From contig NZ_JAKWJQ010000004.1 of NCBI RefSeq assembly GCF_022761015.1, positions 248,001 through 312,000 of the forward strand: 64,000 nt of DNA, read 5' to 3'. The notes beneath the pieces are model-generated. The model made no database searches, was not told the DNA's origin, and saw only the letters and a program-made list of their open reading frames with translations. Shown in pieces: positions 2,976-57,170 of the stretch. The stretch comes from Humibacter sp. RRB41 (GTDB lineage Bacteria > Actinomycetota > Actinomycetes > Actinomycetales > Microbacteriaceae). The position numbers were made by a program, and so were the translations under genes. Position 1 is the first letter of the stretch, and each line of letters opens with the position of its first letter.

Positions 2976-4376
2976 GTGCCCAAAATCCTGATCGTCGGCG
3001 GCGGCTACGCCGGTTTCTACACCGCTTGGAAACTCGAGAAGTGGCTGCGCAAAGGCGAGGCAGAGGTCACGCTCGTCGACCCGCTGCCCTACATGACGTA
3101 CCAGCCGTTCCTTCCCGAGGTCGCCGCCGGTGAGATCGAGCCGCGTCACGCGGTCGTCGGCCACCGTCGTCACCTGAAGAAGACGAACATCATCTCGGCG
3201 AAGGTCACCTACGTGAACCACGCAGAGAAGAAGGCGACCATCACGCCGGCCATCGGCGAGCCGTGGGAATTCGAGTACGACCAGGTCGTCATCACCGCCG
3301 GTGCCGTCAGCCGCACGTTCCCGATTCCGGGCGTCGCCGACGAAGCCATCGGCCTGAAGAACATCGAAGAGGCGGTCGCCATCCGCGACCGTGTGCTCGG
3401 CAACTTCGACAAGGCTGCGGCTCTTCCCGCAGGTCCTGAGCGCGAGCGCTTGCTCACGTTCGTCGTCATCGGCGGCGGTTTCGCTGGCATCGAGATCTTC
3501 GCTGAGCTTCGTGCATTTGCGAGCGCACTGCTCGAGCAGTACCCGCAGATCACGTTCGAAGAGACGCACTTCCACCTCATCGAGGCCATGGGGCGCATCA
3601 TGCCCGAGGTTTCGCTGCCCACCAGCCACTGGGTGATCAAGAACCTCGCAGAGCGTGGCGCGGAGATCCATCTCGAGACGCAGCTCTCCAGCGCGGTCGA
3701 CGGACACATCGAGCTGTCCACCGGCGAGAGCTTCGACGCCGACCTGATCGTGTGGACCGCCGGCGTGATGGCGAACCCCGAGATCGTGCGTCACACCGAC
3801 TTGCCGATCGAGGAGCGCGGGCGGCTGCGGGTTCGTGCCGATCTGCGCGTCGGCACCGATGACGACGTCATCGCGGATGCCTGGGGCTGTGGTGACGTCG
3901 CGGCCGTTCCCGACCTCACGGGCATGGGCGTCGGCGGCTACTGCGTTCCGAACGCCCAGCACGCCGTTCGTCAGGCGAAGCTGCTCGCGAAGAACATCGT
4001 CGCGACGATGCGCGGCGAGGGCATCAAGGAGTACTTCCACAAGAGCCTCGGCGCTGTGGCGGGCCTCGGCCTCGGTATCGGCGTGTACCAGTACCGCAAG
4101 ATCGCGGTGAAGGGCTTGATCGCCTGGTTCATGCACCGCGGATACCACGGTCTGGCCATGCCGAGCTGGGAGCGCAAGTGGCGCGTGATCGGCGACTGGT
4201 GGCTGGACTTCTGGCTCGGTCGTGACAACGTGTCGCTCGCCGCGGTGCAGACTCCGCGCGCGGTGTTCGAGGAGTTCGCCTCGCGTCCGAAGCCGCAGGT
4301 CGAAGCCGCCGCGCCGAAGGCCGACGAGAAGCCGAAGGCTGATGAGAAGGCCGCGAAGGCATCCGTCGCGGGCTGA
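2976..4376 (+). CDS. ndh: Type II NADH dehydrogenase (NAD(P)/FAD-dependent oxidoreductase)
   Basis: A single-subunit, non-proton-pumping NADH:quinone oxidoreductase. The N-terminal FAD-binding Rossmann motif (IVGGGYAGFYTAWKLE) and a second dinucleotide fold (VVIGGGFAGIE, near residue 165) are clear, with the later FAD motif around WGCGDVAA. The C-terminal part is rich in Trp and aromatic residues (YHGLAMPSWERKWRVIGDWW), as expected for the membrane-binding region. A low-complexity tail with repeated KADEK follows, unusual for the family. The GTG start is preceded by AAGGAG at 2960-2965. A perfect 18-bp terminator follows. Confidence 0.93.
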   Translation: MPKILIVGGGYAGFYTAWKLEKWLRKGEAEVTLVDPLPYMTYQPFLPEVAAGEIEPRHAVVGHRRHLKKTNIISAKVTYVNHAEKKATITPAIGEPWEFEYDQVVITAGAVSRTFPIPGVADEAIGLKNIEEAVAIRDRVLGNFDKAAALPAGPERERLLTFVVIGGGFAGIEIFAELRAFASALLEQYPQITFEETHFHLIEAMGRIMPEVSLPTSHWVIKNLAERGAEIHLETQLSSAVDGHIELSTGESFDADLIVWTAGVMANPEIVRHTDLPIEERGRLRVRADLRVGTDDDVIADAWGCGDVAAVPDLTGMGVGGYCVPNAQHAVRQAKLLAKNIVATMRGEGIKEYFHKSLGAVAGLGLGIGVYQYRKIAVKGLIAWFMHRGYHGLAMPSWERKWRVIGDWWLDFWLGRDNVSLAAVQTPRAVFEEFASRPKPQVEAAAPKADEKPKADEKAAKASVAG

Positions 4377-4466: not shown

Positions 4467-4540
4467 GCCCCCGTAGCCCAATCGGCAGAGGCAGGCGACT
4501 TAAAATCGCTTCAGTCTGGGTTCGAGTCCCAGCGGGGGCA
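4467..4540 (+). tRNA. Class I tRNA with anticodon UAA (nominally tRNA-Leu)
   Basis: The cloverleaf folds completely. The acceptor stem is 7 bp (GCCCCCG/CGGGGGC), the D stem G4476-C4478 with G4490-C4492, and the anticodon stem GGCGA/TCGCT around the loop CTTAAAA. The anticodon TAA is at 4501-4503, and the T arm is CTGGG/CCCAG with loop TTCGAGT. The discriminator is A4540 and CCA is not encoded. The variable region is only five bases (4511-4515), so this is a class I tRNA of 74 nt. Bacterial leucine tRNAs normally have a long class II variable arm, which makes the amino-acid identity uncertain. Acceptor stem and T arm resemble tRNA-Lys. Confidence 0.85.
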
Positions 4541-4593
4541 CGAGTTGAGCGGCGTGGCCGCGAGCACAGCGATTGAGCCGAGAGAAACGAATG

Positions 4594-5082
4594 TCAGGAG
4601 CCGCCGCGCTCCTGCAGCTCCGTGACCAGTTTCTGGATTCGCCTCGCGCGAGTGTCCGCGCCCTTGGCCTCCTCGATCACCCGCACCTGCTGGCGTCGCT
4701 GACCGACCGTCAACCGGTCGAAGGCCTCGCGCGCCGTGCCATCGGCATCCAGCGCGTCATGGAGTTCCTGCGGCTCGGTCACCGTCTGCGGCTCTGTGTC
4801 GAGTTCGAGCTCGACGACGACCACTTCACCGATCACGACACCGGATGCCTGCCGGTTCGCATTGCTCAGCCCGATGAGCTCGCGGCCGCTCATCAACGCC
4901 ACCCTGGTGCGCCACGAGTGCCCGTTGATCGTGACGATCACCCTCGGCCGCTTGCCGGCCCCAAGGGCTTCGACGGCCCCCGGCGCGATCTCCAGCCCCC
5001 TCATGGGCTCCTGGGGCTCCACCGTCGCCTGAAATTCCACGTCGCACCTCCACGTTGCGGGCACGCTCCCGGTGTTCTCCAT
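4594..5082 (-). CDS. DUF1905/YdeI-like protein
   Basis: A 162-residue protein with an N-terminal DUF1905 beta-barrel-like domain (residues about 10-95, including the RVIVTINGHSWRTRVALMSG stretch). After it comes a helical C-terminal segment like YdeI/OmdA (ELHDALDADGTAREAFDRLT near residue 105, then RRIQKLVTEL). In this family the C-terminal domain has been linked to resistance to bacteriocins or cationic peptides, but the molecular role is not known. It stands alone, on the same strand as the downstream-oriented dehydrogenase and 76 bases from it. Confidence 0.8.
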   Translation of the reverse strand: MENTGSVPATWRCDVEFQATVEPQEPMRGLEIAPGAVEALGAGKRPRVIVTINGHSWRTRVALMSGRELIGLSNANRQASGVVIGEVVVVELELDTEPQTVTEPQELHDALDADGTAREAFDRLTVGQRRQQVRVIEEAKGADTRARRIQKLVTELQERGGS

Positions 5083-15689: not shown

Positions 15690-15786
15690 AGCTCCCTGCG
15701 CGAGCCGTCAGCCGAGTCGAAGGGTCGGCGACGCCCTTCGACTCGCTGCGCTCGCTCAGGGAACTGATTCGCTCGCTCAGGGGGCT
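15690..15786. repeat. Dispersed intergenic repeat, copy 1 (inverted pair)
   Basis: Two opposed copies of a roughly 33-bp element lie here. The left arm, 15690-15724, runs AGCTCCCTG to GAGTCGAAGGG. The right arm, 15734-15765, runs CCCTTCGACTCGCTGCGCTC to AGGGAACT. A third partial piece (GCTCGCTCAGGGGGCT) reaches 15786 and supplies the stop codon of the neighbouring minus-strand gene. The same element recurs at 19582-19617 and 55831-55866. Confidence 0.85.
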
Positions 15787-17003
15787 GAGGAGACCGCGTC
15801 CGCGAGCCGACCGGCGAGCGTGCCGCGGTCTCGCACCTCGATGGCCGACAGCCCCTGCCATTGTGCGGCCTCGCGGAGGAGAGCTGCGAGTCGGTCGGGG
15901 GTGTCGGCATCCGCCGTCGGCTGCTCCCACGCCGACTGCACGATGAGCACTCCGGCCTTGCGGTCGCTTTTCAGATCCACCCTGCCGACGATCCGGTCGT
16001 CTTGCAGCACGGGGAGCACGTAGTAGCCGTACACGCGCCGGTCCGCCGGCGTGTAGATCTCGATGCGGTAGTCGAGGTCGAACATCCGCAATGCCCGCGC
16101 ACGCTCCCAGACCACCGGGTCGAAGGGAGACAGCAGAGCGGATGCCCGCACCGCCCGCGGCATCTTCGCACCCGTCGCCAGCCAGGTCGGGGCGGGCCGT
16201 CCCGACCGTTCCCAGCCCGCCACGCTGACCTGTTGCACCTCGCCGGCGTCTTCGAGTTCGCGCAGGGCGATGGCTGTCGGCGCGTTCTTCAGCCGGTAGT
16301 AGTCGGCGACGTCGCCGAGCGTCCCGATTCCGAGGGCGCGAACGGATCTGAGAACGAGCTCGCGCACGGCATCCTGAACAGGGACGACCCGATCGAGCAC
16401 CGCGGAGGGGAACACTTGATGGGGGAGCGCGTAACGGCGCTCGAACCGGTTGCGTCCGGCGATCACGACGTCTCCGAAGCGAAATAACAGCTCCAGCGTG
16501 TGTTTCACTTCCGACCAACCCCACCACGGACCCTTGCGCACGTTCTCCTCGTGCTCGATCTCGCTTGCCGCGAGAGGTCCGCGGTCCGCGAGTTCGTCGA
16601 GCAGCCAGCGTGCAGTGGCTCCGTTCCGCTGTTCCCAGTCGTCACCGGCATACCGCTCGCGCATCGCGCGCTTGCGCCAGTCGAAAAGCGGCAGGTCGTC
16701 GCGCCGCAGGAATGCAGCCTCGTGTGCGACGTACTCGGTGTAGGGAGAGCGGGTGCGCAGCGTGAGCGCATCGAGCAACGACTTGTCATACGACCCGAGC
16801 CGTGCGAACACCGGCAGGTAGTGGCTGCGTTCGAACACGTTGACCGAGTCGATCTGCAGCAGCCGCAGACGGTCGATCAGACCGTTCAGCTGCCTGGTTC
16901 CCACCGCGCTCGCGGTGCCGGTGCGACCGAATCCCTGCGCGGCGAGAGCGGTGCGCCTGGCCTGGGCTGCGGAGATCGTGGGAGTGTGCGTCGACGGTGC
17001 CAT
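15777..17003 (-). CDS. Winged-helix DNA glycosylase of the YcaQ/AlkX (HTH_42) family
   Basis: A 408-residue protein of the HTH_42 superfamily, whose members unhook DNA interstrand crosslinks. The catalytic QxD motif of the YcaQ branch is visible near residue 51 in LRLLQIDSVNVFERSHYLP, and the family segments YTEYVAHEAAFLRRDDLPLF and GWSEVKHTLELLFRFGD follow. The ATG at 17003 is chosen because a TAACCT hexamer ends seven bases upstream; an ATG at 17033 is possible. The stop codon lies inside a copy of the dispersed repeat. It is divergent from the AI-2E-type transporter. Confidence 0.88.
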   Translation of the reverse strand: MAPSTHTPTISAAQARRTALAAQGFGRTGTASAVGTRQLNGLIDRLRLLQIDSVNVFERSHYLPVFARLGSYDKSLLDALTLRTRSPYTEYVAHEAAFLRRDDLPLFDWRKRAMRERYAGDDWEQRNGATARWLLDELADRGPLAASEIEHEENVRKGPWWGWSEVKHTLELLFRFGDVVIAGRNRFERRYALPHQVFPSAVLDRVVPVQDAVRELVLRSVRALGIGTLGDVADYYRLKNAPTAIALRELEDAGEVQQVSVAGWERSGRPAPTWLATGAKMPRAVRASALLSPFDPVVWERARALRMFDLDYRIEIYTPADRRVYGYYVLPVLQDDRIVGRVDLKSDRKAGVLIVQSAWEQPTADADTPDRLAALLREAAQWQGLSAIEVRDRGTLAGRLADAVSSAP

Positions 17004-17010
17004 CCGCTCG

Positions 17011-17044
17011 AGGTTAGCGCTCGCCTCCGACATAGACTGAGCCG
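17011..17044. promoter_or_regulatory. Divergent leaderless promoters
   Basis: AGGTTA at 17011-17016 is a minus-strand -10 (TAACCT) that ends seven bases before the ATG of the YcaQ-like gene. TAGACT at 17033-17038 is a plus-strand -10 that ends six bases before the ATG at 17045. Neither gene has room for a ribosome binding site, so both transcripts are probably leaderless. Confidence 0.6.
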
Positions 17045-18250
17045 ATGGCGCAACCACCGGAACCCGGCAGGACACCAAATCCGAGCGAACGCGAAAGCGT
17101 CGATGAATCGCTGCCTCGGGGCATCCGTATCGCGGGCGCGTGGTCGTGGCGGCTTCTGCTGATCGGCGCGGTGATCGCGGTCGTCGTCTTTCTGATCATC
17201 GAACTGCGATTGATCGTGATTCCGGTCCTCGTCGCCGTGCTGCTGTCGGCATTGCTCGTTCCCCTTGTGCAGCTCATGGTGAAGCACCGGTGGCCGCGCT
17301 GGCTGGCGATCGTGCTCGCGTTCGTCGTCGTCGCCGTGATCATCGCAGGGCTCGTGCTGCTCGTCGTCCTGCAGATCAAGGGAGAATCGCACGCGCTGCA
17401 GACCAGGAGCGTCGACGCCTACGACGCGTTCCGGGACTGGCTGCGCGGCCCGCCGCTCGAGCTGACCGACAAACAGATCAACGGCTGGCTGACCCAGGGT
17501 CTGGCCGCGCTGCAGCAGGACAGTCAGGTGCTGATCTCCGGGGCGCTCTCGATCGGCTCGACCCTCGGCCACGTGCTCACCGGTGTACTGCTCACCGCCT
17601 TCAGTACCCTGTTCATCCTGATCGACGGCAAGGGCATCTGGGGCTGGATCGTGCGCATCTTCCCGCGCCGTGCCAGGGCGGCCGTCGACGGCGCGGGTCG
17701 CGCAGGATGGGTCACGCTCACCAACTTCGCCAGGGTGCAGGTGCTCGTCGCCTCGATCGACGCGGTGGGCATCGGCCTCGTCGCGTTCTTCCTCGGGTTG
17801 CCGTTGGTGATTCCGATCGCCGTGCTCGTGTTCCTCGGCTCGTTCATCCCCATCGTCGGCGCCGTCATCACCGGTGCCCTGGCCGTCGTCGTGGCCCTCG
17901 TCTACAACGGGTGGGTTGCTGCGATCATCATGCTCATCGGCGTTCTGGCCGTGCAGCAGCTGGAGGGACACGTTCTGCAGCCGCTCATCATGGGGTCGGC
18001 GGTCAAGGTGCACCCGCTCGCGGTCGTGCTCGTCGTGGCGACGGGATCGCTGCTGGCCGGCATCCCTGGAGCCTTGTTCGCGGTGCCGTTCGCCGCGGTG
18101 CTCAACGTGATGGTGCGCTATGTTTCGGGCGGCTCATGGAGATCGGGCGCGGATGCCGCGTACACGGGTCCGCCCGACGCCTTGTGGCAGACGGTGCCGA
18201 GGCCCCGCAGGCTGCGTACCGCCAAGACCACCGATGGCGACGAGAGCTGA
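17045..18250 (+). CDS. AI-2E family transporter (PerM-like)
   Basis: A 401-residue membrane protein of the AI-2E exporter/PerM family, with paired N-terminal helices (about 34-60 and 76-110), a soluble linker, and a C-terminal helix cluster. The segment GSFIPIVGAVITGALAVVVAL and the later AVQQLEGHVLQPLIMGSAVK with HPLAVVL are family signatures. Members export small molecules or ions; the substrate here is unknown. It is divergent from the YcaQ-like gene and appears to be read from a leaderless promoter. Confidence 0.92.
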   Translation: MAQPPEPGRTPNPSERESVDESLPRGIRIAGAWSWRLLLIGAVIAVVVFLIIELRLIVIPVLVAVLLSALLVPLVQLMVKHRWPRWLAIVLAFVVVAVIIAGLVLLVVLQIKGESHALQTRSVDAYDAFRDWLRGPPLELTDKQINGWLTQGLAALQQDSQVLISGALSIGSTLGHVLTGVLLTAFSTLFILIDGKGIWGWIVRIFPRRARAAVDGAGRAGWVTLTNFARVQVLVASIDAVGIGLVAFFLGLPLVIPIAVLVFLGSFIPIVGAVITGALAVVVALVYNGWVAAIIMLIGVLAVQQLEGHVLQPLIMGSAVKVHPLAVVLVVATGSLLAGIPGALFAVPFAAVLNVMVRYVSGGSWRSGADAAYTGPPDALWQTVPRPRRLRTAKTTDGDES

Positions 18251-56869: not shown

Positions 56870-57170
56870 GCCACACGGTCGATGCGGGAGAGTCCGCGCG
56901 GGAACCCGCACACGGACACCGAAGGAGCAATCCTCCCCGACAATCTCTCAGGTATCCCTACCGCATCGAACTGGCCACTCTGGAGAGCAGCCCGCGGCGC
57001 AGGTCGTGGTCTCGCCCAAGGTGAAAGCGCCGGCAGTGCCGGAGCGAATCTCTCAGGCCTTCATGACAGAGGGGGAGTTCTTGCGGCCACGTCACGTGTG
57101 CGGCCTCTCGACCGGCCCGTAGATACCTCCAGGAAGTTTTGCGGGTCGCGAAGCAGATCGGAGAACTCCC
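56870..57170 (+). ncRNA. Tandem glycine riboswitch with expression platform
   Basis: Two glycine aptamers lie in series upstream of gcvT. The first (about 56881-56967) is closed by GATGCGG/CCGCATC and has GGGAGAG, CCGAAGGAGCAA and CTCTCAGG. The second (about 56976-57074) has CTGGAGAGC, CCAAGGTGAAAGCGCC and CTCTCAGGCC, closed by CTCTG/CAGAG. Right after it GGGAGTTCT (57073-57081) can pair with AGAACTCCC (57162-57170), which lies between the Shine-Dalgarno purines and the gcvT ATG. Glycine would be expected to free the start site and turn the operon on. Together with the operator this explains the 508-base gap 56663-57170. Confidence 0.9.

Follow-up and report, generated by a model that had tools for sequence, protein, structure and literature searches.

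A short-loop, class I tRNA-Leu(UAA) as the only UUA decoder of a Humibacter genome

The 64,000-nt stretch of Humibacter DNA analysed here (hereafter the window) carries at 4467–4540 (+) a class I tRNA-Leu(UAA) gene with a five-base variable loop, and this tRNA is the genome's only UUA decoder. We consider it very likely that this is a working housekeeping tRNALeu, which reads UUA and receives leucine from the only LeuRS of the cell despite its class I (5-nt) variable loop, as a member of a coherent family of short leucine tRNAs. Direct support exists for the gene and its shape, for its being the one UUA decoder, for its conservation and for the finding that its body goes only with leucine anticodons (among the matches listed). 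The initial annotation had offered several readings of this gene, one of them a UUA decoder of unusual origin; that reading has gained support, since no second UUA decoder was found in the genome and conservation of the short form extends across the class.

The gene, its fold and its conservation

ARAGORN finds a single tRNA in the window, tRNA-Leu(taa) at 4467–4541, and Rfam model RF00005 matches 4467–4540 on the + strand (58.6 bits, E = 4.4e-10). The gene, which comprises tRNA positions 1–73 and does not encode CCA, reads GCCCCCG-TA-GCCCAATCGGCAGAGGC-A-GGCGA-CTTAAAA-TCGCT-TCAGT-CTGGG-TTCGAGT-CCCAG-CGGGGGC-A, and its assignment draws on both programs and on covariation in 26 relatives. All of its parts lie on the + strand. 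As read from the sequence, the acceptor stem joins 4467–4473 to 4533–4539; the D arm (GCCCAATCGGCAGAGGC, positions 10–25) spans 4476–4492 and carries A14, A15, G18G19, A20a, G21 and A22; and the anticodon arm lies at 4494–4510, with the loop CTTAAAA (sequence reading, and ARAGORN position 35) and the anticodon UAA at 4501–4503. The variable loop TCAGT (positions 44–48, at 4511–4515) includes A46-G47-U48, all three invariant in the 26 relatives, as is the discriminator A73 at 4540, and every pair of the T arm (4516–4532) is preserved in the covariation alignment. The variable region thus has 5 nt, as against the 10 nt or more of a class II arm, and the anticodon is a leucine one. The D stem has three regular pairs (10-25, 11-24 and 12-23) and a C13/A22 mismatch, with G21-A22 following A20a; by its letters, this D arm is of the leucine type, unlike the 4-bp arm of the Lys type. 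ARAGORN, RF00005 and direct reading therefore bear out the four intact arms, UAA anticodon and five-base variable region first described for this gene, with the D stem now refined to three pairs plus C13/A22. The single-sequence minimum free energy fold is a rearranged, non-cloverleaf structure; we prefer the cloverleaf because covariation backs it. A sigma-70 promoter scan upstream of the gene returned no match. Elsewhere in the window, tandem glycine riboswitch aptamers occur at 56875–57076 (+) (RF00504, 62.1 and 38.4 bits).

A homologue is found in 39/39 relatives searched and, with the tRNA's own genome, in 40/40 genomes. Thirty loci were read from end to end, and each is a Leu(taa) with a short loop and a length typical of class I (73–74 nt without CCA), so that alignment to the tRNAs of related genomes, proposed at the outset as a check, returns short-loop Leu(UAA) and not standard class II leucine tRNAs. 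Across 26 aligned relatives, 99.8% of cloverleaf cells are paired, and changes on both sides of a pair affect 11 pairs and 61 cells, compared to 5.2 and 14.1 expected from shuffles. Covariation so far above the shuffles places the cloverleaf beyond chance and indicates a tRNA gene that has not decayed. Upstream, and outside the tRNA, an ndh-like gene at 2976–4376 (+), encoding a pyridine nucleotide-disulphide oxidoreductase of the NADH dehydrogenase type (Pfam PF07992), serves as a syntenic marker; a homologue of it lies within 1.5 kb of the tRNA in 20/30 loci, the window's own locus counted. Conservation, compensated stems and ndh-like synteny together argue for an old, vertically inherited, functional gene. 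The downstream ORF at 4594–5082 (−) encodes OmdA/YdeI and DUF1905 domains, and has no homologue in the flanks of the relatives' tRNA.

Leucine identity and UUA decoding

We searched viral contigs and genome contigs with the short body, leaving the anticodon free; the figures are those of samples. Among the matches listed, 80/80 from viral contigs have leucine anticodons (UAA 66, CAA 6, UAG 4, CAG 2, AAG 1, GAG 1), as do 80/80 from genome contigs (UAA 67, CAA 10, UAG 2, GAG 1). As a control, a standard class I body was used as the query; its 97 matches bear 18 anticodons that specify 10 amino acids, none of them leucine. The short body is thus leucine-specific among the 160 matches listed.

The bacterial leucine identity elements A73, A14, A15-U48, G18G19 and A20a are all present and are invariant in the 26 relatives. 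The joint signature (A14, A15-U48, GG-N-A20a-G21-A22 and A73) occurs in 35/49 class II leucine tRNAs, in none of about 1,090 non-leucine tRNAs examined, and in 331/396 class I leucine tRNAs, the last figure not being independent, as the pattern by which these were fetched selects for A14, A15, A20a, G21 and A22. The fair comparison is therefore that between class II leucine and non-leucine tRNAs, together with the 30 relatives found by BLAST. The shared A73, A15-U48, G18G19 and A20a agree with known leucine identity in E. coli, where these elements matter and variants without a variable arm are still charged (PMC9976931). The initial annotation took LeuRS to need the long variable arm, a premise that fails for E. 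coli (PMC9976931).

The tRNA inventory of the genome (3.89 Mb in 14 contigs) was gathered by Rfam search and reading of regions, and holds 45 tRNAs. Its Leu CAA, TAG, GAG and CAG are all ordinary class II, Lys(CTT) and Lys(TTT) are both present, and there is no second UAA anticodon; a separate class II tRNA-Leu(UAA), for which the initial annotation had advised a check, is not among the 45, and the short tRNA alone reads UUA. The genome encodes one LeuRS above the curated cut-off, with an intact leucyl editing domain and an anticodon-binding domain. MiaA is also found, and nothing in the genome exceeds the curated cut-off for TrmL.

LeuRS may recognise the short tRNA by the determinants that it has in common with class II tRNALeu, namely A73, A14, the A15-U48 Levitt pair, G18G19, A20a and the leucine-type D arm. 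Charging would proceed by way of the D-loop corner, the A15-U48 core and A73, with no part played by a long variable arm, and the ribosome would use the product at UUA codons. Charging by LeuRS, expression and i6A37 modification of this tRNA are all probable. The family would likewise act as the UUA (often also CUA/UUG) reader in most Actinomycetes, and many phages carry members of it. UUA makes up only 1/15,470 codons in the 45 coding-like ORFs of the window, the lone instance being codon 198 of the ORF at 15777–17078 (−), which makes the codon read by this tRNA a very rare one. With so few UUA codons there could be little selection to decode them accurately, which counts against the housekeeping explanation that we favor, as do the lack of a TrmL above the cut-off and a body more similar overall to Lys(CTT) than to any Leu of the genome.

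Spread, origin and competing readings

Short Leu(UAA) is present in 86 of 118 genomes of the class (54 by a strict pattern and 32 more by covariance model with anticodon reading), another 18, among them the Streptomyces-like family with its bldA-like sequence, match a pattern for class II Leu(UAA), and 14 were assigned to neither. No genome among the 118 was detected with both class I and class II Leu(UAA); as the patterns are not fully sensitive, this sets only a minimum for the overlap. Many genomes of the class have a short Leu(CAA) in addition, and a short Leu(UAG) occurs in some. In the Streptomyces-like family (L114–L120), some genomes combine a short class I tRNA-Leu(CAA) with the class II bldA-like UAA tRNA. 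For M. tuberculosis, tRNALeu-2, -3 and -5 are named as those with long variable loops (PMC11541572), and the two remaining leucine tRNAs are probably short, which fits that account. Short tRNA-Leu also occurs in phages of Pseudomonas, Lactobacillus, Prochlorococcus, Myxococcus, Mycobacterium, Gordonia and Streptomyces, and in phage contigs whose retrieval did not depend on leucine, 8/26 leucine tRNAs are class I. Lactobacillus phage Bacchae has three short tRNA-Leu genes (UAG, UAA and CAA) in one cluster (L107, 262–960).

The existence of this family contradicts the earlier premise that every leucine tRNA of bacteria falls into class II. We put at about even odds the broader proposal that a separate class I tRNALeu lineage, able to bear all leucine anticodons and shared by the phages and chromosomes of many hosts, has displaced class II UUR isoacceptors across Actinomycetes. 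If true, a major phylum departs from the universal rule that assigns bacterial tRNALeu to class II, and its LeuRS has to handle tRNAs of two different architectures.

As to where the short body came from, with its function as in our preferred explanation, descent from a class II tRNALeu that lost its variable arm has perhaps an equal chance of being right or wrong. Class II leucine is the nearest isotype group to the short family by mean distance (0.428, versus 0.457 for Thr and 0.461 for Lys), and the two have the leucine D arm in common. A viral tRNA-Leu(UAA) (L426), whose D arm (GGCAGAGAA) is of the class I type and whose variable region has 13 nt, may be an intermediate. Moreover, a Rokuibacteriota MAG (L276, 1–4673), in which lgt (Lgt) and rtcB (RtcB) are chromosomal neighbours, has a Gly(GCC)-Cys(GCA)-Leu(UAA) cluster in the same order as E. 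coli glyW-cysT-leuZ, with a short class I Leu(UAA) in place of the class II, 87-nt leuZ. The viral tRNA and this cluster hint at arm loss. The core of the short family argues the other way, with A9, C12 and C13 where class II has G9, G12 and G/A13, and a tree built on 70 columns from about 160 tRNAs lacks the resolution to decide on arm loss, the short leucine tRNAs forming one loose cluster across anticodons and hosts with weak support.

That same core and the general class I look of the body keep in play a recruitment scenario, in which a class I tRNA of another isotype gained leucine determinants and a leucine anticodon and was partly spread by phages; we regard this origin as a tentative second choice. 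A9, the class I-like body overall and the frequency of the short family in phages all favor it. Recruitment demands, however, that the leucine D arm arose by convergence, and none of the 160 matches listed has a non-leucine anticodon on the short body.

Neither origin alters the reading as a UUA decoder, and departures from that reading fare far worse. Use of the tRNA chiefly outside translation (in regulation, as an amino acid donor, or as an integration site for phages or mobile elements) had been raised in general terms by the initial annotation, and would suit the near absence of UUA from the window's genes. We think it very improbable: no other tRNA can read UUA, short Leu(UAA) is conserved across the class at one locus, and the only alternative to it in sister lineages is the class II form. 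The single copy, the compensated stems and a body with leucine anticodons only (among the matches listed) speak against it as well.

The least probable reading is a copy of tRNA-Lys, or of another class I tRNA, with a mutated anticodon, either decayed or mischarging Lys at UUA. A resemblance to tRNA-Lys had been seen in this gene, and it holds in that Lys(CTT) is, of all tRNAs in the genome, the one whose body is most similar overall (53, versus 48 for the best Leu) and also has A73; it does not extend to the acceptor stem, which is identical to that of Arg(TCT). The anticodon is UAA and not UUU/CUU, and there is an extra base after G19 and a C13/A22 mismatch instead of a 4-bp D stem; none of the 65 class I Lys examined has this leucine-type D arm, which is one base longer than that of Lys. 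E. coli LysRS reads anticodon bases U35/U36, and both positions are A here, which argues against Lys charging. Mischarging finds no support in a single-copy gene that is conserved in all relatives with compensatory changes, and whose body has leucine anticodons in 160/160 of the matches listed, none of them with a Lys anticodon. A decayed tRNA-Lys pseudogene was considered and rejected in view of the single copy, conservation, compensated stems and leucine-only body (among the matches listed); pairing and conservation are both retained (99.8% of cells paired, 40/40 genomes).

Significance and comparison with known systems

Single genes of this kind are routinely annotated as tRNA-Leu, and a short-loop tRNALeu(TAG) is known from mycobacterial clusters (PMC6582537). 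The family itself is widespread and apparently undescribed: we found no description of it, or of its standard UUA role, in the open-licence literature, and subscription journals may hold one. Textbooks, class rules and annotation filters treat an arm-less leucine tRNA as a misassignment or pseudogene (see PMC8450103); against that habit, a short tRNALeu is the sole UUA reader in most Actinomycetes sampled, and is common in phages. Through this family one can study, in a natural case, how LeuRS singles out leucine tRNAs when there is no long arm to go by, and how discrimination by SerRS and TyrRS, arm-binding modification enzymes and tRNA-targeting toxins deal with a short tRNALeu. Streptomyces offers a contrast, as its UUA tRNA (bldA) belongs to class II and has a regulatory role.

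Like the class II bacterial tRNALeu(UAA) represented by E. coli leuZ and Streptomyces bldA, the short tRNA has the UAA anticodon, A73, A14, A15-U48, G18G19 and the A20a-G21-A22 D arm, and is the sole isoacceptor decoding UUA; it differs in its variable region of 5 nt (11–17 nt in the class II Leu examined), its A9, C12, C13 core and its A46-G47-U48. The mycobacterial tRNALeu(TAG) is likewise actinobacterial with a short variable loop, but is a single accessory cluster gene, and neither a family, nor a housekeeping UUA role, nor this range is part of that report (PMC6582537). Class I tRNA-Lys has A73, the class I layout and similar D-loop letters, yet differs in its 4-bp D stem, its D arm without the inserted base and its U35/U36 anticodon. 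A tRNA-Met derivative with a Leu anticodon also has a body without the long arm; it is thought to be silenced, whereas the 4467–4540 tRNA is conserved and has leucine determinants. Finally, metazoan mitochondrial tRNALeu(UUR), including the human one, lacks the long arm and is recognised mainly by A73 and A14 (PMC9976931), but is organellar, structurally loose and of separate origin.
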